The translations under genes were made by a program, and so were the position numbers. A DNA stretch of 64,000 nt from Streptomyces sp. NBC_01217 (lineage in GTDB: Bacteria > Actinomycetota > Actinomycetes > Streptomycetales > Streptomycetaceae): NCBI RefSeq assembly GCF_035994185.1, contig NZ_CP108538.1, positions 8,435,501 through 8,499,500 on the forward strand, read 5' to 3'. Of the stretch, positions 9,463-25,437 are shown in pieces. Under the pieces are notes generated by a model, which was not told where the DNA came from, made no database searches, and was given only the letters and a program-made list of their open reading frames with translations. Numbering within the stretch: position 1 is the first letter of the stretch; each line of letters opens with the position of its first letter.

Positions 9463-9483
9463 CGTCCGTCACATCAACGGACG
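9463..9483. terminator. Weak hairpin between two converging genes
   Basis: CGTCCGT (9463-9469) pairs with ACGGACG (9477-9483) across a seven-base loop. It sits between the dehydrogenase stop and the regulator stop and slightly overlaps the latter. It may act in both directions; there is no T tract. Confidence 0.35.
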
Positions 9484-10577
9484 GCTCTCCTTGGCGTCGG
9501 GGCGGGTCCGCACGACGCGCGGACCCGCAACTCCGGAAGCAGCTCAAGGTGTTGGCGGGGTGCCGGGGTCCGTTCCGATCCGCGCTCGTCGAGCCGCTGC
9601 AGCAGCAGCTTCGCGGCCAGCTCGCCCACCGCCCGCTTCGGCGGTGCGACGGCCGTCAGCGGCACCTCCGCCAGACCCGCCACCTCGTCGTCGTACGCGA
9701 TCAGCGCCAGATCACCCGGCACGCTGACGCCCCGCGCCCGCAGCCCGGGCACCAGCACGATCGCGTCCTCGTCGCTGTGGACGAGGGCGGCCGTCACACC
9801 CTCCTCCCGGACGGCCCGCACCAGCCGGCCGACCGTTCCCTCGTACTCGCCATGGGCGCGGACCACCGGGGATCCCGTCACGGGCGCGAGCCCCAGCGAC
9901 TGCGACGCGGCCAGATATCCCGCGGTGATCTGCGCGGCGTGCGGCCCCTCCTGGAGCACCGCGATGATCGACCGATGGCCCAGTTCCGCCAGATGACCGA
10001 CCGCCACCGCGGCGCCGTGCGCCCGGTCGGTACGTACCCGGTCCAGCCCTGCCGCGGGATTGCCCGCCGGTGCCGAGCGCTCGACGAGCACGGCGGGCAC
10101 CGGGCACTTGAGCAGCCACCTCTCCTGCCCGTCGGCGGGCACCCCGCCGAACCAGCTGGGCGCGACGAGCAGCCCCTCGGCCCCGACCGCCAGCAGATGC
10201 TCCGCCCGCACCGGGTCCTCGGTGTCGACGTACCCCGACATGCCCAGGACCAGCCTGCCGCCCCGGGACTCCACGGCCTCACGGGCCCCGCGCACGATGT
10301 CCGCGAAGATGAAGTTGGTGGTCGGCACGATCATTCCGATCACGGCCCTTTCGGCGGGCGCCGGTTTCACCGGAGCCCCGGCGGTCCGCTCGCCCGGCCA
10401 GGCCACCGCGCCGTGCAGCCGCCGCACCCGTCCCTGGGCCGCCAGGATCTCCACGTCACGCCTCAACGTCACTGCGGAGACCCCGATTTCGGCCACGAGC
10501 TCGGTGACCCGGAGGCTGCCGCGCTCCCGGACGAGTTCGAGCACCCGCGCGTGGCGCTGGTCGACATGCAGTCGCAT
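9474..10577 (-). CDS. Hybrid regulator: DeoR-type HTH with LacI-type sensor domain (copy A)
   Basis: A 367-residue protein. Residues about 5-55 form a DeoR-type winged helix (RHARVLELVRERGSLRVTEL, then GVSAVTLRRDVEILAAQGRV). From about residue 75 the chain is a periplasmic-binding-protein fold of the LacI/GalR kind (IGMIVPTTNFIFADIVRGA, VLVERS, YDDEVAGL, PLTAVAPP). This pairing typifies sugar-responsive repressors that release DNA on effector binding. The start at 10577 has AAGGGGAAG upstream and aligns with copy B at 13168. It follows the 2-hydroxyacid dehydrogenase and GH29 genes on the same strand and has its own TTCGATC element upstream. Confidence 0.88.
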   Translation of the reverse strand: MRLHVDQRHARVLELVRERGSLRVTELVAEIGVSAVTLRRDVEILAAQGRVRRLHGAVAWPGERTAGAPVKPAPAERAVIGMIVPTTNFIFADIVRGAREAVESRGGRLVLGMSGYVDTEDPVRAEHLLAVGAEGLLVAPSWFGGVPADGQERWLLKCPVPAVLVERSAPAGNPAAGLDRVRTDRAHGAAVAVGHLAELGHRSIIAVLQEGPHAAQITAGYLAASQSLGLAPVTGSPVVRAHGEYEGTVGRLVRAVREEGVTAALVHSDEDAIVLVPGLRARGVSVPGDLALIAYDDEVAGLAEVPLTAVAPPKRAVGELAAKLLLQRLDERGSERTPAPRQHLELLPELRVRASCGPAPTPRRAVR

Positions 10578-10651
10578 CGGGCTTCCCCTTGGCGTGGCGG
10601 GCCGGGTGAACGCGGAGCGTGACTCCACGCCGGTCACTGTAGGCCCGCGGT

Positions 10652-10668
10652 CGATTCGATCGATTGCG
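10652..10668. promoter_or_regulatory. TTCGATC-type candidate operator before regulator A
   Basis: CGATTCGATCGATTG contains TTCGATCGA at 10655-10663, 75-90 bases upstream of regulator A. The same core recurs in tandem at 13053-13079 and 14309-14345, so this is a candidate autoregulatory site. Confidence 0.5.
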
Positions 10669-10699
10669 TTCAGCGCGATCGCCGGGAGACCGGCGCGGG

Positions 10700-11971
10700 T
10701 CAGCCCTCGCCGTGACCGCGGTAGAGGTCGACTTCGCCGTCGAGTTCGAGGGCGAGCACGGTGGCGTAGGGGTCACAGACACCCGGTGCGTCGATGCGGA
10801 CCACGCCCGGCACACCGCGGCTGGGGAAGCCGCCGACGACCCGGTGGCCGAGCCGCTCGCCGGTGCCGAGCACGGAGACGCCCTTGACGGTGTTGCGCAG
10901 GCCGCGGAGCTCGACGAAGGCACGGGGCGCGTCGAAGCAGACGAGGAAGAGCGTGCGGCGGTCCTTGGAGAGCATCGAGGGACCGTAGTGATGCCCGTAC
11001 GGGAGACCGCCTTCCGTCGGATACACGGCCTCTTGGTTGCGCCGGATCCAGCGGCCGAGGCCCTCCAGTCGCCGGGCGTGCTCGGACCGGATTCTGCCGT
11101 CCTCCTGCGGGCCGGTGTTGAGCAGTAGATTGCCGCCGTGGCCGATGGTCTCGGTGAAGACCCGCACCAGCTCGCGCACCGACTTGTGGTTGACGTCCTG
11201 GGGCTGGTACCCCCACATGTCGCCGATGGTGTAGCAGAGTTCCCAGTGGCCGTCCGGGCGCCGGATGGGCACGCCCAGTTCCGCGGTGGCGTAGTCGCCG
11301 TGGCCGAGCATGCGGCCGTTGAGCACGGTCCGGGGGCTCAGCCGGAGGATCTCCTCGCGGAGTTCCTTCATCCGCCACTGCCGCTCGTCGCGCTCCCAGG
11401 CGCCGTCGAACCACAGAAGATCGGGCCGGTACTCCTGGATCAACTCGCGGATCTGCCCGCGGTGCACGGTCTCCAGGTAGCGTTCCCAGCGCTCCGGGTC
11501 CTCCTGGCCGGGCGCCGGCATCGCGCGGCGGTTGTCGACCCAGGGCCTGTGCGGCTGCGCGGGCCGGACGCTGGGGTAGTCGGGATGGCTCCAGTCGTTG
11601 TGCGAGAAGTAGAGGCCGACACGCAGGTTCTGACGGCTCAGCGCTTCGGCGAACGGGCCGACCAGATCACGGGCTGCCGGACTGCGCCGGACGACGGACA
11701 GGTCCGTCTGCCGGGTGTCCCAGAGCGCGACGCCGTCGTGGTGCTTGGCGGTCAGCACGGCGTACCTGGCACCGGCCCCGGCGAAGAGCTTCGCCCAGTC
11801 GTCCGGGTCGTAGCGCGATGCCGTGAAGCCTCCCAACTGCTCCATGTACTCCTGGTGGGAGATGTCTCCGCCGAAGAACGACCAGGACTCCGCGACCCCC
11901 TTGACCGCGTAGATCCCCCAGTGGACGAAGATCCCGAGTTTGGCCTCGGGGAACCAGGGCTGCATCGTCAC
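10700..11971 (-). CDS. Cytosolic GH29 alpha-L-fucosidase (copy 1)
   Basis: A 423-residue GH29 enzyme with the family opening WFPEAKLGIFVHWGIYAV, the barrel segment YAVLTAKHHDGVALWDT, and the nucleophile Asp189 in LLWFDGAW. It would remove terminal alpha-L-fucose from oligosaccharides. No signal peptide is present, so it acts on imported material. It starts with GTG at 11971, overlapping the dehydrogenase stop by four bases (GTGA); an ATG two codons later at 11965 is the alternative. The copy at 24166-25437 has the same length, the same M-x-M-Q-P-W start and nucleophile position, so they are paralogues. Confidence 0.88.
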   Translation of the reverse strand: MTMQPWFPEAKLGIFVHWGIYAVKGVAESWSFFGGDISHQEYMEQLGGFTASRYDPDDWAKLFAGAGARYAVLTAKHHDGVALWDTRQTDLSVVRRSPAARDLVGPFAEALSRQNLRVGLYFSHNDWSHPDYPSVRPAQPHRPWVDNRRAMPAPGQEDPERWERYLETVHRGQIRELIQEYRPDLLWFDGAWERDERQWRMKELREEILRLSPRTVLNGRMLGHGDYATAELGVPIRRPDGHWELCYTIGDMWGYQPQDVNHKSVRELVRVFTETIGHGGNLLLNTGPQEDGRIRSEHARRLEGLGRWIRRNQEAVYPTEGGLPYGHHYGPSMLSKDRRTLFLVCFDAPRAFVELRGLRNTVKGVSVLGTGERLGHRVVGGFPSRGVPGVVRIDAPGVCDPYATVLALELDGEVDLYRGHGEG

Positions 11972-13029
11972 GCCGTACGCTCCAGCTCGTCGCGGTGCAC
12001 GGGGTGGGCGAACGGCAGCCCGGCCGCGTACCGGGCGATCTCGTCGACCGCCGAGTCGGCCATCCGCTGCACCTCGTTGCCGAAGGAGCCGGCGAAGTGC
12101 GGGGTGAGCAGCACATTGGGGAGTTCGTAAAGAGGAGATGATGCGGGCGGCACCTCGGGCTCGGTGACATCGAGCACGGCGTTCAGCCGACCGGACACCA
12201 ACTCCTCCGTGAGCGCGTCATGTTCGACGAGCGAGCCGCGCGCGGTGTTGATGAGCGTCGCTCCGTCCCGCATGAGGCCGAGCCGGCGGCGGTCGATCAT
12301 GCGGCGGGTCTCCGGCAGATCGGGGGCGTGCACGCTGATCACATCGGAGCTCGCGCAGAGCTCGTCGAGCCCGACGGTGCGGATGCCGAGCGCGTCGGCA
12401 TCGGCCACGCCCAGATAGGGATCATGGACGATGACCTTAAGGTCGTACGGGCGCAGGAGTTCGAGCACCCGACGGCCGATGCGCGAGGCGCCGACGATGC
12501 CGACGGTCCTGCGGTAGTTCCCGACGTCGGGGAAGGCCTCGCGCCAGTCGTGTTCCCCACGGATCCGGCGGTAGGCCTCGCGCACCTCCAGCAGGCGCTT
12601 GTTGGAGAGCAACACCGTGGCCACGGTGAACTCGGCGACGGGCAACGCATTGGCCGCCGCCGCCGAGGAGACGAGTATTCCGCGCTCCCAGCACGCCTCG
12701 GTGACATGTGACTTGACCGAGCCGGCCGCATGGACGACGGCCCGCAGCCGGGGCGCCGCGGTCAGAACGTAGTCGTCGACGGGAGGGCAGCCCCAGAAGG
12801 TCAAAAGCACCTCGGTGTCGCGCAGGGCCGCGAGCGCGTCGGCCCGGGAGAAGTCGTCGACGATGAGTTCCCGGTCCACCTCCGCCGTCTGCGCGAGCCT
12901 GTGGAGCGTGCGTGGACTGAGAAGCGTTGCGGTCACGGAGGGGTCCATCGCCAGCAGGGTGCGCGGGCGTCGGAGCGGCTGCGGACCCGGGAAGGACGAC
13001 TCGTCGGAGTCCGTGGTCGGGGCGGTCAT
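11968..13029 (-). CDS. D-isomer-specific 2-hydroxyacid dehydrogenase
   Basis: A 353-residue NAD-dependent oxidoreductase of the 2-hydroxyacid dehydrogenase/phosphoglycerate dehydrogenase fold. The nucleotide-binding loop GIVGASRIGRRVLELL lies near residue 175. The later motifs INTARGSLVEHDAL and LLTPHFAG supply the conserved Arg region and catalytic His. It is the first gene of the minus-strand operon with the GH29 fucosidase and faces the tandem TTCGATC operator. In this context it may process a sugar-derived 2-keto or hydroxy acid; the true substrate is not evident. Confidence 0.85.
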   Translation of the reverse strand: MTAPTTDSDESSFPGPQPLRRPRTLLAMDPSVTATLLSPRTLHRLAQTAEVDRELIVDDFSRADALAALRDTEVLLTFWGCPPVDDYVLTAAPRLRAVVHAAGSVKSHVTEACWERGILVSSAAAANALPVAEFTVATVLLSNKRLLEVREAYRRIRGEHDWREAFPDVGNYRRTVGIVGASRIGRRVLELLRPYDLKVIVHDPYLGVADADALGIRTVGLDELCASSDVISVHAPDLPETRRMIDRRRLGLMRDGATLINTARGSLVEHDALTEELVSGRLNAVLDVTEPEVPPASSPLYELPNVLLTPHFAGSFGNEVQRMADSAVDEIARYAAGLPFAHPVHRDELERTA

Positions 13030-13052
13030 GCGACGACCCTAGGGATCACTAT

Positions 13053-13079
13053 TTCGATCGTCAAGATCGAATGATCGAA
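13053..13079. promoter_or_regulatory. Operator array between the divergent dehydrogenase and regulator B genes
   Basis: TTCGATC (13053-13059), five bases, then GATCGAA (13065-13071) form a perfect 7-base inverted repeat; a third copy, GATCGAA, follows at 13073-13079. It sits about 25 bases before the dehydrogenase start and 90 bases before regulator B, so it can control both directions. Confidence 0.65.
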
Positions 13080-13167
13080 GAAGCGAAAATAGCTCAACCC
13101 GATCTTCATGATCGCCGGAGTAGTCTGAGCGGTACGAATGACGTCTCTACCAGCGCAGGAGCCCGGT

Positions 13168-14304
13168 GTGCGGTACACGGTCGACGAACGCCATGAGCGG
13201 ATCCTTGAACTGGTCCGTCTCCACGGCAGCCTGAGGGTCACCGACCTCGCACACCATCTGGGCATGTCCACGGTCACCCTGCGCCGCGATGTGGAGGCTC
13301 TCGCCGCCGCCGGGCGGCTGGACCGGACGCGGGGTGCGGTCTCATGGCCCGGTGCGTCGGCCGCCGCGTCCGTGCCGGGGCCGCAGCCGATTCCGGAAGC
13401 GGGGCCGCAGGGCCTGGCCGCCGGCGCGGGTGTCACCCTCGGCCTGGTGGTTCCGCAGTCTCAGTACTACTTCGGGGAGATCGTCCGAGGTGTGCGGGAG
13501 GAGGTCCAGTCGGCCGGCGGCAGGCTCGTGCTCGGCTTCTCGGGCTATGTTCCTGGCCAGGACGAGGAACAGGCGCGCAGGCTCCTGGACTCGGGTGTGG
13601 ACGGGCTGCTGCTGACTCCCGGGTGGATGCGGGACGGCTCCGAGGAGGACGCCCCCGACCTCGACTTCGGCGTCCCGACCGTCATGCTCGAACGCCGCGC
13701 GGCCGCCGGTACGCAGGCCGCCGAGTTCGACTCCGTCTGCTCGGACCACTACGCCGGAGTCGGGCTCGCGGTGCGTCATCTCGTCTCGCTCGGGCACCGC
13801 GACATCGCGCTGCTGGCCGGGACCAGCGCGACGGGTGTGCAGGTGCGGGCCGGGTACGAGGCGGCGCTGCGGTCCGCCGGGATCGCCCGGCCCCCGATCG
13901 AACCGATCGAGCTGTACGCGGGTGCGCTCGACAGGGACCGCCTGGAGCGGGCGGCGAAGAGGCTGGTCGGGGCCGTCGACGCGGGGAAGGTGAGTGCGGC
14001 GGTCGTGCTCAGCGACACGGATGCCATCCTCCTGCTGCAGATCCTGCGCGGCCTCGAACCGCAGCTCCAGGTACCGCAGGACCTGGCCCTCGTCGCGTAC
14101 GACGACGATGTGGCGGCCCTCTCCGACCTCCCGCTGACGGCGGTCGCACCGCCGAAGTACGAGGTCGGCCGGGAGGCCGTGCAACTGCTTCTCCGGCGCG
14201 TACGGGAGCGTCGGCAGGGGAGGCGGACCGATGCGAGACGGCACCTGGCCCTGCTGCCCGAGCTCCGTGTGCGGCAGTCCTGTGGAGTCGAGCTGAAGCG
14301 TTAG
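13168..14304 (+). CDS. Hybrid regulator: DeoR-type HTH with LacI-type sensor domain (copy B)
   Basis: A 378-residue paralogue of the protein at 9474-10577. The HTH spans about residues 5-55 (RHERILELVRLHGSLRVTDL, then GMSTVTLRRDVEALAAAGRL). A LacI-type ligand domain follows, with GLVVPQSQYYFGEIVRGV, VMLERR, LGHRDIALLAG and LPLTAVAPPKYE. The GTG start at 13168 has AGGAG six bases upstream and aligns with copy A; an ATG ten codons earlier has no such site. It is transcribed divergently from the dehydrogenase-fucosidase operon and lies directly before the importer genes. It is probably the sensor for the imported oligosaccharide or its product. Confidence 0.88.
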   Translation: MRYTVDERHERILELVRLHGSLRVTDLAHHLGMSTVTLRRDVEALAAAGRLDRTRGAVSWPGASAAASVPGPQPIPEAGPQGLAAGAGVTLGLVVPQSQYYFGEIVRGVREEVQSAGGRLVLGFSGYVPGQDEEQARRLLDSGVDGLLLTPGWMRDGSEEDAPDLDFGVPTVMLERRAAAGTQAAEFDSVCSDHYAGVGLAVRHLVSLGHRDIALLAGTSATGVQVRAGYEAALRSAGIARPPIEPIELYAGALDRDRLERAAKRLVGAVDAGKVSAAVVLSDTDAILLLQILRGLEPQLQVPQDLALVAYDDDVAALSDLPLTAVAPPKYEVGREAVQLLLRRVRERRQGRRTDARRHLALLPELRVRQSCGVELKR

Positions 14305-14308
14305 TTAA

Positions 14309-14345
14309 TTCGATCGAAATGATCGAAGGATCGAAACTTCGATCC
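14309..14345. promoter_or_regulatory. Operator array before the ABC importer operon
   Basis: Three elements: the palindrome TTCGATCGAA (14309-14318), GATCGAA (14321-14327), and a perfect 8-base inverted repeat GGATCGAA-AC-TTCGATCC (14328-14345). It starts five bases after the regulator B stop and about 190 bases before the permease start. The density of copies makes it the strongest candidate binding region in the locus. Confidence 0.7.
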
Positions 14346-14531: not shown

Positions 14532-15518
14532 ATGTCGGTGGCGGTCAAGGAACCGGAGGCGCGCCGGCGAATACGGACAGCCCTCGGCCGGCCCGCAACG
14601 AGCAGTCCGCCCACAGCCGGTCTGTGGACTCGGATACGCAGGGACCGCGCACTCCTGCTGCTGATGGCACCGGGCGTTCTCTTCTTCCTGGTCTTCCAGT
14701 ATCTGGCTCTGTTCGGGAACGTCATCGCGTTCAAGGACTACATGCCGTTCCTCGGAGTGAAGGACAGCCCGTGGGTCGGCTTCGCCAACTTCCAGGCCCT
14801 GTTCGGGGAGCCGGCGTTCTGGCACGCGGCGTCGAACACCGTGGTCATCTCGCTGGCGCAACTCGTCTTCTACTTCCCCGTCCCGCTGGCGCTGGCACTG
14901 CTTCTGCACAGCCTGGTCCAGGGGCGGGTGCGCAGGTTCGTACAGAGCGTGGTGTATCTGCCGCACTTCATCTCATGGGTGATCGTGGTCGCTCTCTTCC
15001 AGCAGGTGCTGGGGGCGGACGGCGTGCTCAACGGCGCGCTGGGCGGATCCGACGGTCACCTGGTCGACGTCATCGGCAATCCGGACCTGTTCAAGCCCCT
15101 GATGGTGCTGGAGCTGATCTGGAAGGAGTGCGGCTGGGGCACCATCATCTTCCTCGCCGCGCTGGCCCAGGTCGACGAGGGCCTGTACGAGGCGGCGGCC
15201 CTGGACGGGGCGGGTCCGTGGCGAAGGTTCTGGCACGTGACGCTCCCCGGGCTGCGCGCGGTGATCTTTCTGCTGCTGATCCTCCGGCTCGGCGACATCC
15301 TCTCGGTCGGCTTCGAGCAGATCCTGCTGCAGCGTGACGCCTTCGGGCCCGATGTCTCCGAGGTCATCGACACCTACGTCTTCTACCACGGCATCCGCGA
15401 CCAGAACTGGGGGGTGGCCGCTGCCGCCGCACTGTTCAAGGGCGTGATCGGTGCATGTCTCGTCCTCGCCGCGAACAAGATCGCCCACCGCATGGGTGAG
15501 CAGGGGGTGTACCGCTGA
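14532..15518 (+). CDS. Oligosaccharide ABC transporter permease, LplB/YteP type
   Basis: A 328-residue inner-membrane protein with six predicted membrane segments, the first near residues 40-62 (LLLLMAPGVLFFLVFQYLAL). The cytoplasmic loop EAAALDGAGPWRRFWHVTLP is the EAA motif that contacts the ATPase. FKDYMPFLGVKDSPWVGFAN is characteristic of the LplB/YteP group, which imports complex plant or microbial oligosaccharides. The start has GAGGGGAGCAG upstream. Its stop shares a base with the start of the next permease. Confidence 0.93.
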   Translation: MSVAVKEPEARRRIRTALGRPATSSPPTAGLWTRIRRDRALLLLMAPGVLFFLVFQYLALFGNVIAFKDYMPFLGVKDSPWVGFANFQALFGEPAFWHAASNTVVISLAQLVFYFPVPLALALLLHSLVQGRVRRFVQSVVYLPHFISWVIVVALFQQVLGADGVLNGALGGSDGHLVDVIGNPDLFKPLMVLELIWKECGWGTIIFLAALAQVDEGLYEAAALDGAGPWRRFWHVTLPGLRAVIFLLLILRLGDILSVGFEQILLQRDAFGPDVSEVIDTYVFYHGIRDQNWGVAAAAALFKGVIGACLVLAANKIAHRMGEQGVYR

Positions 15519-16423
15519 TGAGTGCTGCTGCCACGGAGCGCCCGGCCTGGATGGAGAGACCGAAGCCGGTCACCCGGGGGGCCAGGGGACTGGCCCTGAT
15601 CGTTACCGTCCTGGTGGTGCTGGTCCCGTTCTGGGTCGTGGTCGCGACCAGCTTCGCCCCCGACCAGCAGGTGATCGCCAACGGCGGCTACGCGCTCTGG
15701 CCGGACGAATGGACCCTCAGGGCGTACGAACTGGTCTTCTCCGGCGGACAGATCCTGCGGGCGCTCGCGGTCTCGGGCCTGATCACCCTGGTCGGTACGG
15801 CGTTCAGCCTGGCGTGCACCGTGATGCTGGCGTACGCCCTGGCCCGCCCCGGTGTCGTCGGCGGCAAGCCGGTGATGCTGATGATCCTGTTCACCTTTCT
15901 CTTCCCGGCCGGAATGATCCCCAGCTTCCTCGTGGTCAACGGCCTGCATCTGCGCAACACCTACTGGGCACTGTTCCTCCCCGTCCTGATCAGCGCGTTC
16001 AACCTCGTGGTGATGCGCGGCTTCTTCCAGGGCATCCCGGCCGAACTCTTCGAGTCGGCCAGGATCGACGGCGCCGGTGAGCTGCGGATCCTGCTGACGA
16101 TCGTCCTTCCGCTCTCCAAAGCGGTCGTCGCGGTGGTCGGGCTGTTCTACGCGGTGGGCTACTGGAACGACTTCTTCCGGGCGATCCTGTACACCGACCA
16201 GTCGACGATGTGGCCTCTGCAGACCTGGATGCGCACCTATGTCGTGCAGAGCCAGAACAGCCTCATCCAGGTCCAGGGCGGCGTCGGCGAGCAGATCCAG
16301 TTCGCCCCGCAGACCGTGAACATGGCCGTCGTGGTGCTCGCCACCGTGCCCATCCTCTGCGTGTACCCCTTCATCCAGCGCTACTTCACCAAGGGCGTCC
16401 TCACCGGCGCCGTCAAGAGCTGA
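15518..16423 (+). CDS. Oligosaccharide ABC transporter permease, LplC/YtcP type
   Basis: A 301-residue partner permease with six predicted membrane segments. The signature regions are PFWVVVATSFAPDQQV near residues 34-49, YALARPGVVGGKP, and the EAA loop ESARIDGAGELRILLTIVLP. It overlaps the previous gene by one base (TGATG), so the pair is coupled. No ATP-binding subunit is encoded in this operon. Streptomyces often energise sugar importers with the shared ATPase MsiK, which would have to be encoded elsewhere. Confidence 0.93.
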   Translation: MSAAATERPAWMERPKPVTRGARGLALIVTVLVVLVPFWVVVATSFAPDQQVIANGGYALWPDEWTLRAYELVFSGGQILRALAVSGLITLVGTAFSLACTVMLAYALARPGVVGGKPVMLMILFTFLFPAGMIPSFLVVNGLHLRNTYWALFLPVLISAFNLVVMRGFFQGIPAELFESARIDGAGELRILLTIVLPLSKAVVAVVGLFYAVGYWNDFFRAILYTDQSTMWPLQTWMRTYVVQSQNSLIQVQGGVGEQIQFAPQTVNMAVVVLATVPILCVYPFIQRYFTKGVLTGAVKS

Positions 16424-16497
16424 CCGACTCCCGCGCTTCCTCAGCCATCGGCCCACCCCGCCCCTGTCCGGGGCTCCTCATGAAGGATCGGTTCGTC

Positions 16498-18168
16498 ATG
16501 TCTTCCGGCATCTCCCGCAGAACTGTCCTGCGCACGATAGGCATCGGCACGGCGCTGGCCGCCACCGGCGCATCACTGTCCGCCTGCTCCGCCTCGGCGG
16601 ACGGCGGGGCCCTGAGCAACGAGGGGAAGAAGCTGGCACCGTGGCCGGACTACGTCCCGCACCCGGACGCACCGGAGCCGGACCTTGCCCCGAGCGAGAA
16701 GGGCGTACAGCCCGGGTACACCGCGTATCCGAGCGAGCTGAAGCAGTCGGTCGCCGAGAAGCCGGGCGACGGCTCCAGGGTGACGGTATGGACGATCACC
16801 TGGGGCGCGCCGCCGAAGGCCAAGGAGAAGCACCGGCTTTGGCAGGCGCTGAACAAGCAGCTCGGCGTCGACCTCGACCTCGTCGTGGTGCCGGCCATGG
16901 AGAGCCAGCAGAAGTTCGCGACCCTGGTCGCAGGCGGTGAACTGCCGGACATCATCGCCGTCGCGCAGAATCTGCCCGACCCCACCGAGCTGATCGCGGC
17001 CAAGTGCCAGGACCTGACCGAATTCCTGTCGGGTGACGCCGTCAGGGAATACCCGAACCTGGCCGCCATCCCCACCTATGCGTGGAAGGCCGCAGGGCAC
17101 ATCGGCGGCAGGCTCTACCGCTTCCCGGTCGAGCGCTCACGCATCGGCCACTCCCTCTACGCCAATGTGGAGCGGTTCAAGCAGGCCGGGATCTGGGTGC
17201 CGGAGACGGCCGGGATCGCGGTCGACGATTTCACCGAGGGCCTGGCGCAGATCTCCGGCAGGCAGAAGTGGGCGATGGGCGCGGCCGGCACGGGCGCGTT
17301 CGGATACAACACCGTGGCACCCGCGTTCGGGGCACCCAACTGGTGGTCGGTGAAGGACGGCCAGTTCACCGGCGCCGTGGAGTCCGATGAATTCAAGGCC
17401 GGTATCGAGCAGCTGGCCAAGTGGCAGAAGGCGGGCGCGTTCCGGGCGGACCCGCTGTCCCACGACGCCACGCTGAGCACCGACTTCCAGACCGGCGTCA
17501 CCGCGAGCGTGTCGCAGTCCAATGTCTCCTTCACAGGCTTCGAGATCGCTGTGAAGGACGGATTCACACTCGACACGGTCCGCCCCTTCAAGCCGTCGAA
17601 CGGGGCGCGGCCCGGACACTGGTTCTCGCCGGGCGCCGACTACTTCACCGTGCTGAAGAAGGCCCCGAAGGCGCGCATCAGGCTGCTGCTGCGGGTGATG
17701 GACTTCCTGGCCGCACCGTTCGGCACCAAGGAGTGGGAGCTCGTCAACTACGGCGCCGAAGGCACCCACTTCACCCGCGGGGACGACGGCAGCCCGGTCC
17801 AGACCCAGCTCGCCCTCGACGGCGACAACAAGGACACCCTGGGCATCGCCTTCATCGCGACCGGCCAGCAGGTGCTCTTCATGCCCGCGGGTGTCACCGG
17901 CGGCGCCGATGCCGTCGGACGCCGTCACGCCTTCCAGGCCGAGATCGCCGAGATCGGCATCGCCGACCCGTCGGTGGGGCTGCTGTCCAGGACCTGGCTC
18001 GCCAAGTACAACGAGCTGCTGCTTCTTAAGGAGGACGCCATCAAGGCGGTCGTCATGGGCCGCAAGCCCCTCTCGTACCTGGACTCCATGGCGAAGGACT
18101 GGAAGGCCAGGGGCGGCGACCGGGCCGCCGACGAATTCTCCAAGGCGTATGCCTCGGCCGAGGCATAG
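16498..18168 (+). CDS. Solute-binding lipoprotein of the oligosaccharide importer
   Basis: A 556-residue extracellular substrate-binding protein. The N-terminus combines a twin-arginine motif (SRRTVLR) with a lipobox ending in LSAC, so it is probably exported folded by Tat and lipid-anchored. The mature chain shows SBP features such as VTVWTITWGAPP and FATLVAGGELPDIIAV. Its length, longer than mono- or disaccharide binders, matches LipO-like proteins partnered with LplB/LplC permeases. The start at 16498 follows GAAGGA; an in-frame ATG at 16480 lacks a site. Confidence 0.92.
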   Translation: MSSGISRRTVLRTIGIGTALAATGASLSACSASADGGALSNEGKKLAPWPDYVPHPDAPEPDLAPSEKGVQPGYTAYPSELKQSVAEKPGDGSRVTVWTITWGAPPKAKEKHRLWQALNKQLGVDLDLVVVPAMESQQKFATLVAGGELPDIIAVAQNLPDPTELIAAKCQDLTEFLSGDAVREYPNLAAIPTYAWKAAGHIGGRLYRFPVERSRIGHSLYANVERFKQAGIWVPETAGIAVDDFTEGLAQISGRQKWAMGAAGTGAFGYNTVAPAFGAPNWWSVKDGQFTGAVESDEFKAGIEQLAKWQKAGAFRADPLSHDATLSTDFQTGVTASVSQSNVSFTGFEIAVKDGFTLDTVRPFKPSNGARPGHWFSPGADYFTVLKKAPKARIRLLLRVMDFLAAPFGTKEWELVNYGAEGTHFTRGDDGSPVQTQLALDGDNKDTLGIAFIATGQQVLFMPAGVTGGADAVGRRHAFQAEIAEIGIADPSVGLLSRTWLAKYNELLLLKEDAIKAVVMGRKPLSYLDSMAKDWKARGGDRAADEFSKAYASAEA

Positions 18169-18199: not shown

Positions 18200-19087
18200 G
18201 TGAACACCACAGGATCTGCCTCCCCCCGCATCCTCCACGCCCCGACGGCGCTTGCCGTCGCAGGACTGCTGACTGCCGCACTGCTGTGCGCCCCGGCCGC
18301 GGACGCGGCCGGGACTTCCTCCACCGCCCTCGTCGACCCCAGCACCCCGGCGGGTGTACGGCCCAATGGCGGCAGCTCGCACGGCACGCTCGTCTTCAGC
18401 GACGAGTTCACGGGAACCTCGCTCGACTCCTCGAAGTGGAGCTCCGTCGATGCCCTGCGCCGAACCGGCACGTACTTCGACGCGTACTGGAAGCCGTCCA
18501 ACGTCAGGGTCAACCCCAACCCGGACTCGGTCAACGGCGGCAATCTGTGGATCTCGCTCTCCCGGCCGGGCGAGGACCAGTACGCCACGGGTGAGATCGA
18601 GGGCCGCGGAAAATTCGACTTCACCTACGGAACCGTGGAATGGCGGGCTCAAATGCCGCCCACCGACGACCACTTCGGCGCGCTGTGGCTGATGCCGACC
18701 GGCGGCACGGGCGGCGTGGACGGCACGGCGCGTGACGGCGGCGAGTACGACGTCATCGAGAGCACCCAGAAGGCCGACGCGTACGGCAACACCATCCACT
18801 ACGACGGCTACGGCGCCGACCACAAGGCGTCCTCCGTCAATGTCAGCGCACCTGGCCTGCACAGCGGTTACCACACCTACGCCATCGAGTGGAAACCGGC
18901 TCAGATCATCTACCGCTACGACGGCGGCGTGGTCCACACGATCAACGATCCTGCCCTCATCAGCCAGGTGCCCATGTTCCCGGTCATCTCCCACGAGGCC
19001 GCCGAATGGGCGGACGGCAGCATCTACGACGCGCCCCTGGACTACCGCTCCAACATGTACGTCGACTACATCCGCGTCTGGCAGTAG
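18200..19087 (+). CDS. Secreted GH16 endo-glycosidase
   Basis: A 295-residue secreted enzyme with a signal peptide of about 36 residues (ADAAG end). The GH16 jelly-roll is recognised by FSDEFTGTSLDSSKW and the catalytic motif E182-Y-D184-V-I-E187. GH16 enzymes cleave beta-1,3/1,4-glucans, galactans (agarase, carrageenase, porphyranase) or related polymers; the subgroup cannot be fixed here. The GTG start at 18200 has AAAGGAG upstream. It lies 31 bases after the binding protein, so it is co-transcribed with the importer and should release its substrate. Confidence 0.9.
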   Translation: MNTTGSASPRILHAPTALAVAGLLTAALLCAPAADAAGTSSTALVDPSTPAGVRPNGGSSHGTLVFSDEFTGTSLDSSKWSSVDALRRTGTYFDAYWKPSNVRVNPNPDSVNGGNLWISLSRPGEDQYATGEIEGRGKFDFTYGTVEWRAQMPPTDDHFGALWLMPTGGTGGVDGTARDGGEYDVIESTQKADAYGNTIHYDGYGADHKASSVNVSAPGLHSGYHTYAIEWKPAQIIYRYDGGVVHTINDPALISQVPMFPVISHEAAEWADGSIYDAPLDYRSNMYVDYIRVWQ

Positions 19088-19133: not shown

Positions 19134-22001
19134 ATGCCCAGATCTGCCTCGCCACGCCTGACCCGCATCTCCATCGTCGGCGCGGCCCTCGCCGGCACCC
19201 TCGCCGTGGCCGTGCCCGCACCCTCGTACGCCGCCGGACTCGTCACCAACGGCGACTTCGAGCAGGTCGCCGCCGACGGCAGCATCGTCGGCTGGCCGCA
19301 GAGCGAGAACCGGGCCAGTGGCCGCGCCACCATCGTGGACGGCGCGGGCCCCGACGGCAGCCGGGCCCTTGCCCTCGACCTCGGCGACCCGGGTGACAAG
19401 GCCGCGGTCGGCCAGGACATCCCCATCGCCGACAGCACCACCCTCCAGGCGTACCGGATCACCTTCGACGAACGCGCCGCCGGCCTCTCCGGCTACGGCG
19501 GCGACCTGTGGGCCCGCAACTTCGGCCACGACGCCGTCATCGGCCGGATCACCGGCGACACGGGCTGGCGCAGGGCCAACGCCGTGGTCCTCGCCCGGCC
19601 CGGCACCAAGGCCGTCAATCTGCTCCTCGCCCTCGAACAGACCACCGGCCGCATGCTCATCGACAACGTCGAGGTCGAGCGCATCGCGGGCAACGCCGTG
19701 GGCGCCAACGTGCAGCCCACCGGCGCCGTGCAGCTCACCTGGCACTTCGCCGCGACCGACGGCACCCCGGCCTCGTACGAGGTGCACCGCTCGACCCGCG
19801 CGGACTTCATTCCGAGCGAGAGGACACTGATCCGCGAGGTCCCCGGCGCGTGGACCGCGGAGGACGGTTCGGCCCGGCCCGGCCGGCGCTACACCTACAA
19901 GGCCGTCGCCCTCGCCGCGGACGGCACGAAGCTGGCCACCACCGGTCCCGAGACCATCACCACGCCCCCGGCCTTCCTGGACGAGCAGCAGACCGATGTG
20001 CTGACGGCGACCGAGCACGGCCGGGCGGTCCGCCTCGCGTGGCGGCTCAAGGCCGGAACCAAGGGCCCGGTGACGCTGTACGCGGGCGGCCCCGAAGTCG
20101 CCGAGGGCAAGCTCCACAAGGCCCGCAAGGTCGGTACGTACAGCGGCAACACCACCACCGGCGGCACCACGCTGCCGGACAGGGACCGACGCGGCGCCAC
20201 CGGGTTCGCGGTCGTCGGACGGGGCGGCAAGGTCCTCGCCACCGCGAGCGCCGCGAGCCTGCAGCACCCGCGGATGGGGGTCAGCGACGACAGGCTCGCC
20301 GCGATCCGCGCCGCGATCCAGCAGGACGGCACCCCCAAGTCGACGTACGACAGCATCGTGAACCGGGTCGCCAAGGGCCTGCCGGCCTACAACTACCGCC
20401 CGGGCGAGGCGCAGGCGTCCTGGGCCCAGGACGCCGCGGTCCTCTACCAGGTCAGCCAGGACCCGGCCTACGCGCAGACCGCGTACGACGCGCTCATCGA
20501 GTCCGGCCGGACCATGCCGTACGTCAACGGCACCTCGGCCGCCGGAGCCGCCGCTCTGGAGACCGCCAACGCCGCCGCGCCCCTGGCCGCCGCATACGAC
20601 TGGGCCTACCAGGGCTGGACACCCGGCCAGCGCGCCGAGGCACAGAGGGTGCTGCAACGCGTCGCCGCCTATCTGGAGGTTTCGTACCACCCGAACTTCG
20701 ACCTGCCGACCAAGCAGAGCAACTGGACCGCGGTGGTGCGCGGCGCCGAGCTGTCCCTGCGACTCGCGGTGCGCGGCGACGGCCCGTTCGATCTGCAGGA
20801 GTACCGCATTGCGCAGTTGATCGACGCGCTCGGCAGGCACCTGGACACCGCCTATTCCGACGCGGGCTGGGACCAGGAGGGCCTGGACTACTTCGGGTAC
20901 GGACTCGGCGTCGGAGCGCCCGGTGTCGTCGGCTCCATCGACGCCGGGATCGGGGTGCTCAGGGCGAAGTGGCAGCGGCCCGCATTTGCCGGTCTGGTGA
21001 TGCACAGCGCCTCGGCGCAGCCCGACGGCGCCCGGCTGCAGTGGGGTGTCGCCTCCGCCACCGGTGCCGTGCCCATCGCGGGCCTGATCTTCACCCAGGT
21101 ACCCGCGGATCAACGGGCGGCGTGGCTGTGGCAGTACGAGAAGACGGTCGGCGGCGGGGGCGGTGCCTACGGCCTGCTGGACTACCCGTACGGGGTGACC
21201 CCGCAGGACCCCGACGAGGGCCCGGCGGCCGTTCGTCAGGCGCTGCTCGACGACCACGGCGGCTCGTACCTCTTCCGCAGCCGCTACCAGGACAGGGACG
21301 ACGTGCTGGTCGGCGCCCAGAACCGCAACGACAACCACATCGGCTGGGGCGGATTCGACACCTTCGCCCTGTCGCTGGTCGGCCAGGACGTGACCTGGGC
21401 CAGGCAGCCCGCCAAGGACTACGCCAAGCGCGAGCTGTTCTCCAAGCCGCTGATCGACGGCTTCCCCGAGAAGCGCAGCACGGACAGCATCGCGGGCAAG
21501 GGCGAGACCCTGGAGTCCCGGGCATACGCAGGCCAGGGCGGCGGCTTCGTCTCGCTCGACGGCCACCTCAACTACGAGCTGGCCAAGGCCCACCGCGACC
21601 TGGCGGTCGACCTGCGCCCGGTCGGCGGAGCGGACTCCGTCATCGCCGTCCACGACGTGTTCGCGGACTCCGCCTCGCACCGCTACGACTGGCAACTGTC
21701 CCCCGAGGCCGGCACGGCGATCACCTTCGGTGCGAGCGAGTCGGGCGTGAAGACCTTCCTCTTCAAGAAGGGGGAGGGGTACCTCAAGGGCTGGGTCCTG
21801 GCTCCCGACGGAGCCGAACTCTCCACCGACAAGGGAGCGTTCAAGGTCACCCGCAGCGGCACCGGCGCCGACTTCAAGATCGTTCTGGCCGTGGGCAAGG
21901 GCACCCCACCCACGGCCACCACGGTCGGCGACGCACTGACGATCGGTGACACCACCTACGACCTCGGCGCTCTCAAGGGCTTCAGCCCGGCCGGGGGCTG
22001 A
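19134..22001 (+). CDS. Large secreted heparinase II/III-like protein, putative polysaccharide lyase
   Basis: A 955-residue exported protein with a signal peptide of about 33 residues. In order I see a carbohydrate-binding-like jelly-roll (about 35-180, LVTNGDFEQ), a fibronectin-III-like segment (about 195-275, VQLTWHFAATDGTPASYEVH), an alpha/alpha-toroid (about 375-690, with NWTAVVRGAELSLRLAVRGD) and a C-terminal beta-sandwich (from about 690, with NRNDNHIGWGGFDTFALSL). The toroid-plus-sandwich layout is that of heparinase II/III-type lyases that act on uronate polymers, but I cannot assign a PL family or prove the catalytic residues. The ATG follows CGGAGGA. It is co-directional with GH16 and the importer. 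Confidence 0.7.
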   Translation: MPRSASPRLTRISIVGAALAGTLAVAVPAPSYAAGLVTNGDFEQVAADGSIVGWPQSENRASGRATIVDGAGPDGSRALALDLGDPGDKAAVGQDIPIADSTTLQAYRITFDERAAGLSGYGGDLWARNFGHDAVIGRITGDTGWRRANAVVLARPGTKAVNLLLALEQTTGRMLIDNVEVERIAGNAVGANVQPTGAVQLTWHFAATDGTPASYEVHRSTRADFIPSERTLIREVPGAWTAEDGSARPGRRYTYKAVALAADGTKLATTGPETITTPPAFLDEQQTDVLTATEHGRAVRLAWRLKAGTKGPVTLYAGGPEVAEGKLHKARKVGTYSGNTTTGGTTLPDRDRRGATGFAVVGRGGKVLATASAASLQHPRMGVSDDRLAAIRAAIQQDGTPKSTYDSIVNRVAKGLPAYNYRPGEAQASWAQDAAVLYQVSQDPAYAQTAYDALIESGRTMPYVNGTSAAGAAALETANAAAPLAAAYDWAYQGWTPGQRAEAQRVLQRVAAYLEVSYHPNFDLPTKQSNWTAVVRGAELSLRLAVRGDGPFDLQEYRIAQLIDALGRHLDTAYSDAGWDQEGLDYFGYGLGVGAPGVVGSIDAGIGVLRAKWQRPAFAGLVMHSASAQPDGARLQWGVASATGAVPIAGLIFTQVPADQRAAWLWQYEKTVGGGGGAYGLLDYPYGVTPQDPDEGPAAVRQALLDDHGGSYLFRSRYQDRDDVLVGAQNRNDNHIGWGGFDTFALSLVGQDVTWARQPAKDYAKRELFSKPLIDGFPEKRSTDSIAGKGETLESRAYAGQGGGFVSLDGHLNYELAKAHRDLAVDLRPVGGADSVIAVHDVFADSASHRYDWQLSPEAGTAITFGASESGVKTFLFKKGEGYLKGWVLAPDGAELSTDKGAFKVTRSGTGADFKIVLAVGKGTPPTATTVGDALTIGDTTYDLGALKGFSPAGG

Positions 22002-22007
22002 CGAAGC

Positions 22008-22051
22008 TCCGCGGGAGTCACCGATACCTGACGATCGGCGGCTCCCGCGGA
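22008..22051 (+). terminator. Hairpin after the importer-lyase genes
   Basis: TCCGCGGGAG (22008-22017) pairs with CTCCCGCGGA (22042-22051) over a 24-base loop, starting seven bases after the lyase-like gene. It may end or attenuate the operon before the next secreted protein. No T tract follows. Confidence 0.5.
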
Positions 22052-22139
22052 ATCAGGACCGGGATTCGATCCCCCACGATCCACCGGTCCGTCGTCGGCG
22101 GCGGGCCGGTGTCCCCCCACCCCAACACGAGGAGGAAAG

Positions 22140-23315
22140 TTGCAGATCCTCAACTTCCGGTCAATCCGGCGTCTCGTCCGCATACCCACGCTCATCCGCA
22201 GGGCCACGGTCCTCGCGGCCGCCCTGCTGGTGGCCGCGGTGCCCGCCATCAGCACGCCGGCGGCCGCCGCGGCGAGCTTCCCCGTCTTCGTCAACGAACG
22301 CGGCGCGAACCGGCCGGCCCTGGAGCAGTACGGCTCGACCCGCTCCACAGTCGTGTACGACGTCTTCGCCTTCACCTGCGACACGGCGGGCTGCTATTCG
22401 AACGGCGGGGCGCTCCCGTCCGAGGCCACGTACGAGGCCAAGGTCAAGGAGTACATGGGCGCGAGCCAGTTCGGTGGTGCGGCCACCGCTCCGGTCGTGC
22501 TCGACTTCGAGTCGATCGAGCTCACCCAGGTACCGACGGGCCAGGCGGCGACCAACGCGTACAACCTCTGGCGTCAGCTGCTGACCTGGACCCACACCGC
22601 CGCCCCACAGGCGCCGGTCTGCCACTACGGCTACGACTGGCTGACCCAGAACCAGAACCTGATCAAGCAGTTGCACACGGACAGCCTGCTCAACTGCTTC
22701 GCACCCAGGGCGTACTTCTACGACGGCCAGGCGCTGACCAGCTGGGACAGCAATCTCGACCAGTCCGTCGCCCGCGACCGGGCCATGGCGCCGAGCCACC
22801 CGATCTACCCGTACGTCAACCCGACGTCCTTCCAGTCGGAGAGCTATGTGCCCGGCAGCACCTGGGCGCACATGTTCGCCAAGGTGAAGGCAGTGGCGGA
22901 CGGCGTTGTCATCTGGGAGCCCAGCGTCGAGAACGCCAATGCCTGCGCATGGATCTCACAGCATTCGTACGAGATGGGGGTCATTACCGGCACCAGCAGC
23001 AGCGGTCCGTTGAAGGCCACGGCCGCACCACCGAGCGGCAACTGCACAGTGACCCGCGGGACCACCACCACCGTGCCGGTCACCCTCACCAACACCTCCG
23101 GCTCCACCACCGCCGCCACCCAGATGCAGAGCTTCGCCGGCACTGCGGGTTTCTCCGGCAGCTGGCAGTACTGGAACGTGCCCTCGCTCGCACCGGGCGC
23201 GAGCTGGTCCACGTCCCTGCCCATGGCGATCGCATCGACGCAGACGGCCGGTACGGCGCTGCTGCACATCCGCACCGGCCTCAGCGACACCCGCTGGGCG
23301 GTGATCGTCCAATGA
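22140..23315 (+). CDS. Secreted protein of unknown family, possibly a TIM-barrel glycosidase
   Basis: A 391-residue exported protein with a long Arg-rich signal peptide ending near residue 46 (PAAAAAS). The TTG start at 22140 is chosen because GAGGAGG lies four bases upstream and no ATG or GTG is available in frame. The main domain has alternating strand/helix segments; APVVLDFESIELTQ looks like a barrel strand with acidic residues, and HYGYDWLTQNQ and IYPYVNPTSF are similar. Residues about 290-391 form a Thr/Ser-rich beta domain. A hyaluronidase-like or other glycosidase role is possible but not proven. Its position suggests action on the same polymer as its neighbours. Confidence 0.75.
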   Translation: MQILNFRSIRRLVRIPTLIRRATVLAAALLVAAVPAISTPAAAAASFPVFVNERGANRPALEQYGSTRSTVVYDVFAFTCDTAGCYSNGGALPSEATYEAKVKEYMGASQFGGAATAPVVLDFESIELTQVPTGQAATNAYNLWRQLLTWTHTAAPQAPVCHYGYDWLTQNQNLIKQLHTDSLLNCFAPRAYFYDGQALTSWDSNLDQSVARDRAMAPSHPIYPYVNPTSFQSESYVPGSTWAHMFAKVKAVADGVVIWEPSVENANACAWISQHSYEMGVITGTSSSGPLKATAAPPSGNCTVTRGTTTTVPVTLTNTSGSTTAATQMQSFAGTAGFSGSWQYWNVPSLAPGASWSTSLPMAIASTQTAGTALLHIRTGLSDTRWAVIVQ

Positions 23316-23368
23316 CCGCAGCCCGGAGCAACCGGATCGAGGCGAAGCCCTGCTGGTAGTTTTTCATC

Positions 23369-24163
23369 ATGCGCACAGCTGTGATGACCGGGTCGCTCGT
23401 CCAGGTGTGCCTGGACGAGCCGCCCCGTGTCGCGAGCGTCGGCGTCGGTGTGCACGGAACGGAGAGCCTGCGTGATGTGTTCCGGCTGCCGGATCTGTGG
23501 CAACTGCATCTGTACCGGTACGCGGGCGAACTGACCGTCGACGGCGAGGCGCACGAGATCCGGCCGGGGTACGTGAGCCTGACGCCGCCCGGGGCGTTGG
23601 TGCGCTACCGCTACCGAGGGCGGTCCGAACATCTCTACGCGCACCTGGAACTTCCGCGGACCGGCGATCGGTTGACCGTACCCGTGATGCAGAGCGCCGG
23701 TGCGCAGGCGCCGATGCTGTCCGGCCTGTTGCAACAGGCCGTCGCGGTGGCGCCGCGCAGCCACGCCCGGGCCTCCGCCGAGGTGTGGGCCGCTCTGTGG
23801 CGGGTCGCCGCACTCGCGGCGACCCGCGAGGGGGATGCCGAGCGGGCGCACAGCCCGGTCGCCGCGGCCGTCGCCCATGTCGAGGCCAACCTGGCGGGGC
23901 CGCTCTCCGTGCCCGAAGTCGCCGAGGCCGCCGGGGTTTCGCACAACCACCTCATCCGGTTGTTCCGGGCGGAGACCGGCGCCACCGTCGTCGCGTACAT
24001 CCGGCGGCGCAGGATGGAGCAGGCCCGGCACCTGCTGCGCGAGTCGACGCTGTCGATCCCCGCCATCGCGGCCTCGGTCGGCATCGGCGATCTGCAGGCC
24101 TTCAACAAGGCGTGCCGGCGCGAACTGGGCGCGTCACCGCGCGCGGTCCGCGCCGGAGGCTGA
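23369..24163 (+). CDS. AraC-family transcriptional regulator
   Basis: A 264-residue activator-type regulator. An N-terminal cupin-like sensor (about 10-140) contains LHLYRYAGELTVDGEAHEI. Two C-terminal helix-turn-helix motifs (about 170-264) contain LSVPEVAEAAGVSHNHLIRL and IPAIAASVGIGDLQAFNKAC. No Shine-Dalgarno is visible; TAGTTT at 23357-23362 lies just before the ATG, so the message may be leaderless. It converges with the second GH29 gene, two bases apart, and is a likely sugar sensor for the locus. Confidence 0.88.
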   Translation: MRTAVMTGSLVQVCLDEPPRVASVGVGVHGTESLRDVFRLPDLWQLHLYRYAGELTVDGEAHEIRPGYVSLTPPGALVRYRYRGRSEHLYAHLELPRTGDRLTVPVMQSAGAQAPMLSGLLQQAVAVAPRSHARASAEVWAALWRVAALAATREGDAERAHSPVAAAVAHVEANLAGPLSVPEVAEAAGVSHNHLIRLFRAETGATVVAYIRRRRMEQARHLLRESTLSIPAIAASVGIGDLQAFNKACRRELGASPRAVRAGG

Positions 24164-24165
24164 CC

Positions 24166-25437
24166 TCAGTCGCGGCCGGTGCCGCGGTACAGGTCGAGCT
24201 CACCGTCGAGCTCCACGGCCAGCACGGTGGCGTACTCGTCCACATCCGCGTCCGTCGGGGCGTCGATCCACAGGACTCCGGGCACCTCACCCAGGCCGCC
24301 GATGATCCGGTGGCCGAGCCCGGTGCCGGGGCCGACCACGCTCACGCGCTTGACCGGGGTCCGCAGACCGCGGAGTGCGATGCTCTCGCGCGGCGTGTCG
24401 AAGCAGATCAGATAGAGGGTGCGGCGGTCCGCGGACAGGGTGCTCGGACCGTAGTGGTGCCCCGCGGGGAGCCCCGCCACCGTGCCGTACACGGCGCCGC
24501 GGTGCCTGTCGATCCAGCGGCCGAGTCCTTCGAGGCGCTCGACCTGCTCGGCCGGGATCGTGCCGTCCTCCATCGGGCCGACGTCGAGGAGCAGATTGCC
24601 GCCCGTGCCGATGGTCTCGGTGAAGTAGCGCACCAACTGGCGCACCGACTTGTGGTTGTTGTCGTGGTGCTGGTAGCCCCAGGAGTCGTTGACCGTCAGA
24701 CACAGCTCCCACGGCCCGTCGGGGGCCCGCAGCGGCACGCCCTGCTCGGGCGTGGCGTAGTCGCCGTAACTCAGCATCCGTGCGTTGAGGACGGTGTCCG
24801 GGTTGCCCGCCAGGATCTCCTCGGACAGCTCCCGCATCTTCCACTGCTGCTCGCTGCGCTCCCACTCGCCGTCGAACCACAGGAGATCCGGACAAAAGCG
24901 CTCGACGAGCTCGCCGACCTGGGCATTGCGGTACGCGAGGAAGCGGGCCCAGGCCTCGGGGTCCTCCTTTCCGGGCGCGGCCGAGGCGTAACGGTTGCCG
25001 ACGACCTCTTCGTTCGGCGGGTCGGTGTGCACCGTGCTCGCGTAGTCGGGGTGGTTCCAGTCCGAGTGCGAGTAGTACAGGCCGACCTTGAGGCCGTGCT
25101 CACGCAGCGCTTCCGCGTACCCGGAGAGGAGGTCGCGGCCGGCGGGCGTGTGCCGTACGACGTTCAGGTCGCCGTGTGCTGTGTCCCAGAGGGCGACGCC
25201 GTCGTGGTGGCGGGCGGTCAGCACCGCGTACCTGGCGCCCACGCGGGCGAACAGCTCGGCCCAGGCCTTCGGGTCGTACTTGGAGGCGGTGAAGCCGTCG
25301 AGCTGCCTCATGTACTGCTCGTGCGGGACCTTTCCGGAGTAGAAGGACCAGGACTCGGGCACGCCGTCGACGGCGTAGATCCCGTAGTGGATGAAGATGC
25401 CCAGCTTGGCATCGGAGAACCAGGGTTGCATCGGCAT
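24166..25437 (-). CDS. Cytosolic GH29 alpha-L-fucosidase (copy 2)
   Basis: A 423-residue paralogue of the enzyme at 10700-11971, with the same layout: WFSDAKLGIFIHYGIYAV, YAVLTARHHDGVALWDT, and nucleophile Asp189 in LLWFDGEW. No signal peptide. The two copies share length and motif spacing but differ through the substrate-facing loops around residues 135-160, which hints at different aglycone preference. It is monocistronic, facing AraC at the 3' end and divergent from the Rpf-like gene. No TTCGATC element is seen upstream, so its control differs from copy 1. Confidence 0.88.
   Translation of the reverse strand: MPMQPWFSDAKLGIFIHYGIYAVDGVPESWSFYSGKVPHEQYMRQLDGFTASKYDPKAWAELFARVGARYAVLTARHHDGVALWDTAHGDLNVVRHTPAGRDLLSGYAEALREHGLKVGLYYSHSDWNHPDYASTVHTDPPNEEVVGNRYASAAPGKEDPEAWARFLAYRNAQVGELVERFCPDLLWFDGEWERSEQQWKMRELSEEILAGNPDTVLNARMLSYGDYATPEQGVPLRAPDGPWELCLTVNDSWGYQHHDNNHKSVRQLVRYFTETIGTGGNLLLDVGPMEDGTIPAEQVERLEGLGRWIDRHRGAVYGTVAGLPAGHHYGPSTLSADRRTLYLICFDTPRESIALRGLRTPVKRVSVVGPGTGLGHRIIGGLGEVPGVLWIDAPTDADVDEYATVLAVELDGELDLYRGTGRD

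Follow-up and report, generated by a model that had tools for sequence, protein, structure and literature searches.

The gene run at 9474-25437 of a 64,000-nucleotide stretch of Streptomyces sp. NBC_01217 DNA, hereafter the window (8.44-8.50 Mb of the 9.03-Mb genome), raises the question of which polymer is taken apart by a set of genes that combines secreted enzymes, an importer, cytosolic GH29 proteins and local regulators. The most likely answer is a cassette for a fucose-bearing uronate polymer; in its fuller form, this 16-kb stretch is probably a patchily distributed, self-regulated cassette for an acidic polysaccharide that contains 4-linked uronic acid, probably glucuronic acid (GlcA), and alpha-L-fucose. 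Gene content, folds, conserved putative catalytic residues, linkage and operators were computed. An earlier, sequence-only reading of the same DNA had proposed a locus for the import and degradation of a fucose-containing polysaccharide, and the gene kinds that it named (a GH29 pair, permeases, a binding lipoprotein, GH16 and a lyase-like enzyme) are all present where it placed them; missing from it was a secreted GH56-fold protein at 22140-23315 (+).

Gene content and borders

The genes and operator sites of the cassette, and the gene that marks its right edge, are arranged in the following order.

9474-10637, minus strand: LacIa, an accessory regulator that joins a DeoR-type helix-turn-helix to a LacI-type sugar sensor (PF08220 and PF13377)
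10700-11971, minus strand: GH29a, an apparently cytosolic GH29 protein (PF01120, 276.7 bits against a cut-off of 25.2)
11968-13029, minus strand: 2HADH, D-2-hydroxyacid dehydrogenase family (PF02826/PF00389)
13053-13071: operator TTCGATC-N5-GATCGAA, exact match, upstream of 2HADH-GH29a
13138-14304, plus strand: LacIb, a DeoR-type helix-turn-helix fused to a LacI-type sensor (PF08220 and PF13377)
14309-14344: operator TTCGATC-N5-GATCGAA at 14309-14327, exact match, with three further half-sites, upstream of the permease genes
14532-15518, plus strand: permB, ATP-binding cassette (ABC) sugar permease (PF00528, scored at 56.1 bits on the longer frame, P0001)
15518-16423, plus strand: permC, ABC sugar permease (PF00528; nearest NCBIfam model UgpE, far under cut-off)
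16480-18168, plus strand: SBP, solute-binding lipoprotein (PF13416; lipobox cysteine motif by eye)
18200-19087, plus strand: secreted GH16 protein (PF00722, 42.6 bits against a cut-off of 22)
19134-22001, plus strand: secreted lyase-like protein with a jelly-roll binding module, an Fn3-like stretch, an (alpha/alpha) toroid and a beta-sandwich
22140-23315, plus strand: secreted protein with a GH56 (hyaluronidase-like) fold and a C-terminal beta domain
23369-24163, plus strand: AraC-family regulator (PF12833)
24166-25437, minus strand: GH29b, an apparently cytosolic GH29 protein (PF01120, 288.8 bits against a cut-off of 25.2)
25492-26925, plus strand: transglycosylase-like, LysM and M23 domains in a single frame

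LacIa and LacIb are paralogues, 2HADH overlaps GH29a in the same direction, and the closest named relatives of two cassette proteins are from Streptomyces (89% and 93%). Since the transglycosylase/LysM/M23 gene stands directly after GH29b, the right border drawn in the earlier reading is a natural border too. No transporter ATPase was seen in the 9474-25437 gene run; Streptomyces sugar importers commonly share one ATPase. Two long open reading frames, 25483-26844 (-) and 19508-21949 (+), proved on translation to be arginine-rich shadow frames and were rejected, and frames P0001, P0002 and P0003 have false N-termini, their starts having been called too early.

Co-inheritance of the cassette genes

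Eleven lyase loci from 10 genomes were compared (the window, L031-L037, L038/L039, L041 and L101), with flanks of about 4 to 20 kb a side, within which all locus absences given here hold; protein searches show further lyase genomes beyond these 11 loci. The matching hits L034/L040 and L033/L102 were each counted once, the L036 lyase, which lies in two pieces in different frames, was scored present, a dehydrogenase match of 51 residues in L032 was scored absent, and a regulator match in L035 (27%) was left out of the count. A cytosolic GH29 adjoins the lyase in 8 of the 11 loci (only 34-36% identical in L037), and a DeoR/LacI-type regulator is found in 10 (at 35-36% in both L037 and L101); seven loci hold permeases that are about 60% identical or more, six hold 2HADH, four GH29b and three AraC. 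Importer, endo- and exo-enzymes and regulator are hence conserved together, which is what marks a glycan-utilisation locus, and the earlier idea of joint import and degradation is supported, in the form of one co-inherited cassette with shared operators. This grouping goes beyond chance, as it recurs in other genomes and as all three GH29 matches of the genome lie inside the window. Gram-positive loci for glycan utilisation that combine an ABC importer with a LacI-type repressor are like the cassette in their secreted endo-enzymes, importer, cytosolic exo-enzymes and local repressor (a predicted one in the cassette) with palindromic operators, but the enzyme set and operator of the cassette did not appear in the titles and first abstract lines of the mostly open papers listed, 8 of 17 on fucosidase/hyaluronate-lyase regulons and others on GH29 with lyases in Streptomyces among them.

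The distribution is patchy. The full lyase occurs in 3 of 150 Streptomyces genomes, the GH56-fold protein in those 3 plus one, and the lyase catalytic domain in 3 of 394 genomes of the class. Partial matches to the lyase profile, which in 40 of the 43 matched genomes covered the binding module or the Fn3-like stretch only (best E 6.0e-7), were rejected as evidence. The Catellatospora lyase is at L036:9908-12729, and the protein database also lists a Catellatospora protein of 484 aa.

PL8 genes are present in 2 of the 11 lyase loci, L036 and L033, the latter having two different PL8 genes (L033:4378-6774 and L102:4220-6508), of which only the first has an exact operator. The mere presence of PL8 was rejected as evidence because it is found in 117 of 150 Streptomyces genomes, so that only PL8 position and operator count. 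Outside the compared loci, L096 has PL8 and a GH56-like gene no more than about 8 kb apart, and in L090 a PL8 gene has GH29b, AraC and 2HADH within about 11 kb. The window itself has no PL8, the three matches of its genome lying elsewhere, and in this it differs from the two related loci, which hold relatives, one of them behind the same operator, of the PL8 hyaluronate lyase of Streptomyces coelicolor (2wco, which we take to be ScPL8Hyal); nearest to 2wco is the PL8 of L036. According to the accessible part of a 2024 review, ScPL8Hyal acts on hyaluronan (HA), chondroitin 4-sulfate (C4S) and chondroitin 6-sulfate (C6S) (PMC11669647).

Operators and the predicted regulator

Exact TTCGATC-N5-GATCGAA sites number two in the 9.03-Mb genome and flank LacIb on both sides, and five half-sites cluster at 14309-14344. 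Allowing one mismatch adds two more genomic matches, both outside the cassette, and a backward control of the search gave 0 matches in the whole genome. Within the window, three matches with at most two mismatches were seen against a mean of 0.12 over 100 shuffles, the third lying at 47740 with 2 mismatches. Copies with 0-2 mismatches stand at matching places in L031, L032, L033, L036 and L038, and the L034 copy has 3 mismatches; the operator regions at 13053 and 14309 each align with 5 relatives, the alignment with L036 being weak. Because its gene sits between both operators, LacIb is the probable regulator of the cassette, and we infer that it pairs with these sites.

On the minus strand, TTGACG falls within the spacer of the 13053 operator, by eye a possible -35 element of 2HADH-GH29a, and such a position inside the operator fits a repressor. 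In L033, an exact operator lies upstream of a PL8 gene, with an adjacent half-site and a TTGACT layout resembling the permB promoter, which places this PL8 lyase in the same predicted regulon. A TTCGATCGATTG stretch is present at 10655-10666, just upstream of LacIa.

The secreted enzymes

In a fold comparison of its model, the toroid and beta-sandwich of the lyase-like protein have the PL35 fold, and by sequence the protein reaches PL35 with a single-sequence E of 0.0024 and a profile E of 3.3e-7 to 8khw and 0.02 to 9o3q. Fold and profile comparison together support the uronate-lyase fold of what the earlier reading had called a lyase-like enzyme. All 24 rows keep N530, Y586 and Y589, and 23 of the 24 keep H735; the spacing of these residues resembles the Asn/Tyr/His of PL35, in a part where the predicted model is weak; lyase activity on a uronate polymer would be consistent with these features. 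The PL35 glycosaminoglycan (GAG) lyases (GAGases; 8khv, 8khw, 9o3q) are thus alike in toroid, beta-sandwich and residue spacing and give the best profile match, whereas identity is only 13-16% in structural alignments, the window lyase adds an N-terminal binding module and an Fn3-like stretch, it has no Pfam match, and its fold score is level with PL17 and PL21. PL35 enzymes act on GlcA-containing GAGs, and one on alginate too, as far as the accessible part of the source states (PMC12088678). Near the divergent lyase homologue of L101 lie a GH20 gene (7253-8653), which adjoins it, and a GH78 gene (1369-4182); the C-terminal end of that homologue weakly matches the N-terminal domain of chitinase A.

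The nearest solved chains of the secreted GH16 protein are beta-1,3-glucanases/laminarinases (E 1e-12), and the E-x-D-x-x-E motif, which we take to be the rule for GH16, is present as GEYDVIE. For the protein encoded next to the lyase, structural comparison found a hyaluronidase barrel fold; as no Pfam family was matched even at E 0.5, it is called GH56-like and not a GH56 member. D122, E124, Y163, Y165, Y192 and W259 are invariant in 36 rows, only the W region being tool-aligned to GH56; GH56 enzymes have a catalytic D-x-E and, besides, acetamido-pocket residues. The GH56 hyaluronidases (bee venom, Ves v 2, human HYAL1) share the barrel fold, have D-x-E where the window protein has an invariant DFE, and include a human HYAL1 Trp with which its Trp aligns; in contrast to them, at 12-16% identity, it is bacterial and secreted and carries a C-terminal beta domain. 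The accessible part of the 2024 review uses GH56 for enzymes of mammals and of venoms, and the branches in its tree of microbial enzymes that degrade hyaluronan are PL8, PL16, GH16, GH84, PL29, GH88, PL17, PL33 and PL35, with GH56 not named (PMC11669647). Among the papers listed for GH56 in bacteria, actinobacteria or Streptomyces, in mostly open literature, none was on this locus by title and start of abstract.

Cytosolic GH29 proteins and fucose genes

Neither GH29a nor GH29b has a signal peptide visible by eye (no predictor was used), and the best structure matches of both are alpha-L-fucosidases (6gn6, E 1.5e-58 and 3.5e-70). A literature search on GH29 structure codes gave a single paper, on an unrelated subject. 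In GH29a, the residues that align with the T. maritima pair, which we take to be the catalytic Asp and Glu, are D189, present in 20 of 20 rows, and E231, present in 19 of 20; GH29b likewise keeps residues aligning with this pair. The catalytic residues are intact and both domains are over the Pfam cut-off, which bears out the claim of two GH29 proteins, apparently cytosolic ones, and alpha-L-fucosidase activity is predicted for both. They are like the GH29 alpha-L-fucosidases 6gn6 and T. maritima 1hl8 in their domain, catalytic pair and conserved histidines, and differ from them in being apparently cytosolic and in that, among the compared rows, the GH29a clade is confined to lyase loci. This clade (7 rows, all lyase-locus members) has a support of 94/100, just below the usual line and with an unsettled bootstrap, and GH29a at 78% identity or more is found only in the 3 of 150 Streptomyces genomes with the full lyase. 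GH29a apparently represents a cassette-specific clade; the GH29b clade has relatives also in genomes without the lyase, and GH29 of this general kind occurs at E 1e-60 in 41 of the 150 genomes. A very divergent GH29-type protein, with S aligned at the catalytic Glu in an unsure alignment, is encoded near PL8 at L090:3689-4960 (G083).

Directly beside GH29b in genome G065 (L038:2968-7308) are FAA hydrolase, MR_MLE, SDR and aldo/keto reductase (AKR) genes. Relatives of MR_MLE and SDR are found at 1.83 Mb of the window genome (71% and 74%), and two further genes lie in the window, outside the cassette and 26 kb away.

51781-52812, plus strand: AKR, candidate L-fucose dehydrogenase, sharing 73% identity with the G065 AKR that adjoins GH29b
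52842-53981, plus strand: amidohydrolase, candidate L-fuconolactonase (best NCBIfam model NF052480, L-fucono-1,5-lactonase, 236.6 bits, under the cut-off of 400; start probably called too early as well)

An L-fucose oxidation pathway is a reading of these genes, and the earlier claim that fucose is involved is strengthened by L-fucose-oxidation-like genes beside GH29b in G065 and partly elsewhere in the window.

Proposed working of the cassette

In this scheme we infer every activity, the substrate, the pairing of operators and regulator, and the step assigned to the dehydrogenase. Outside the cell, the lyase would cut at uronic acid by beta-elimination, and the GH56-fold protein and GH16 would cut other backbone bonds. 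The lipoprotein and the two permeases would then import the oligosaccharides, driven by an ATPase whose gene lies elsewhere. Once in the cytosol, these would lose alpha-L-fucose to GH29a and GH29b, and the fucose would be oxidised by enzymes encoded elsewhere, with candidates at 51781-53981 and 1.83 Mb. 2HADH would reduce a 2-keto acid, and one may guess at that from unsaturated uronate, since the open form of free unsaturated uronate is a 2-keto acid. LacIb would sit on the TTCGATC-N5-GATCGAA operators over divergent promoters and leave on binding of imported sugar.

Several observations weigh against this scheme. The GH56-fold gene is present in 5 of the 11 lyase loci and GH16 in 4, fewer than half in each case; no GH29 adjoins the lyase in L035, L041 and L101; and an operator with 0-2 mismatches at the matching place is lacking in L034, L035, L037, L041 and L101. 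The promoter scan called no sigma-70-like promoter at threshold, the -35 and -10 readings being made by eye, and the lyase model has low confidence around the active site, with pLDDT (predicted local distance difference test) below 50 at 577-585 and 734-739. None of the putative fucose genes of the window genome is part of the cassette, and the best-matching named models for the fucose enzymes are below cut-off. In addition, the window genome has no GH88/GH105 (PF07470, found by the control search in 3 of 14 genomes); as these are the usual removers of unsaturated uronate, a gap is left in the route after lyase cutting. This absence made GH29a a tempting candidate for the uronate remover, which was rejected because unsaturated uronate keeps the D-gluco stereochemistry at C2/C3, opposite to L-fucose, and GH29a keeps the GH29 residues.

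The target polymer

The PL35 and PL8 likeness, the GH20 gene and the PL8-GH56-like neighbourhood argue for a uronate polymer, which may also contain N-acetylhexosamine. A possible target, albeit not a probable one, is a GAG-like polymer in which GlcA alternates with N-acetylhexosamine and fucose is carried on branches; it could come from animal matrix, a bacterial capsule or some other source.

Unlikely, in our estimate, is that the target is a fucose-bearing glucuronan (mucoran or extracellular polysaccharide) of Mucorales and that the cassette feeds on fungal walls. In the accessible part of the source, mucoran consists of 4-substituted GlcA and 3-substituted mannose (GlcA:Fuc:Man 5:2:3), and the M. 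mucedo glycuronan has Fuc:Man:Gal:GlcA of 5:1:1:6, so that uronate and fucose, as the core gene pair requires, occur in one polymer; the aldobiouronic unit of mucoran, however, is alpha-linked GlcA to mannose (PMC6433966). The characterised PL35 and PL8 enzymes cut GAGs as far as the available texts go, the GH56 fold suggests N-acetylhexosamine, and no mannosidase was seen in the conserved core, all of which speak against such a target. Among the examples offered by the sequence-only reading, a mucoran-like polymer thus stays as one of at least two classes that fit, and an algal or plant glycan finds no specific support here.

It is improbable that the substrate of the GH29 proteins is a different alpha-L-sugar, for instance L-galactose, and that the polymer has no fucose. 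An exo-alpha-L-galactosidase GH29 chain is among the matches (7ljj, E 7.5e-30), and all solved chains are only distant relatives of GH29a and GH29b, but the best matches are the alpha-L-fucosidases and L-fucose-pathway-like genes lie beside GH29b in G065; the match of the window lactonase to the L-fuconolactonase model lowered this alternative slightly further and slightly raised the cassette for uronate and fucose, which we prefer.

The following neighbouring genes form a separate set.

28185-38975: PA14-GH2, GH92 and a 788-aa GH29 (N-terminal leader by eye)

The sequence-only reading had tied these secreted proteins to the cassette, but one shared system for a mannose- and fucose-rich glycan is very improbable: the set begins only 2.7 kb away, yet unrelated genes (the transglycosylase/M23 gene and a DMT-type transporter) stand in between, GH2 and GH92 occur in 0 of 10 other lyase loci, the set holds no operator match with at most 2 mismatches, and its GH29, used as query, matched only cytosolic GH29 places in other lyase loci.

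Other genes in the window

Three further features lie outside the cassette.

2519-3967: protein of the M64 (IgA peptidase) family
8099-9457: Zn-alcohol dehydrogenase; its nearest model, glutathione-independent formaldehyde dehydrogenase, stays below cut-off
46842-46939: tRNA-Pro (GGG)

Implications

A bolder proposal, which we consider decidedly doubtful, is that the lyase founds a new polysaccharide-lyase family, that the GH56-fold protein is a bacterial branch of the substrate-assisted endo-hexosaminidases, and that both, with the GH29a clade, dismantle a fucosylated GlcA/N-acetylhexosamine polysaccharide as yet undescribed in soil, under the control of a DeoR/LacI hybrid repressor that has an operator of its own. 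For the preferred cassette, two secreted families without a functional name gain a fold, putative catalytic residues and a pathway. The operator offers a direct handle on which sugar induces the locus, and hence on which polymer is eaten. If the target were fungal, the cassette would bear on the attack of these bacteria on Mucorales walls.

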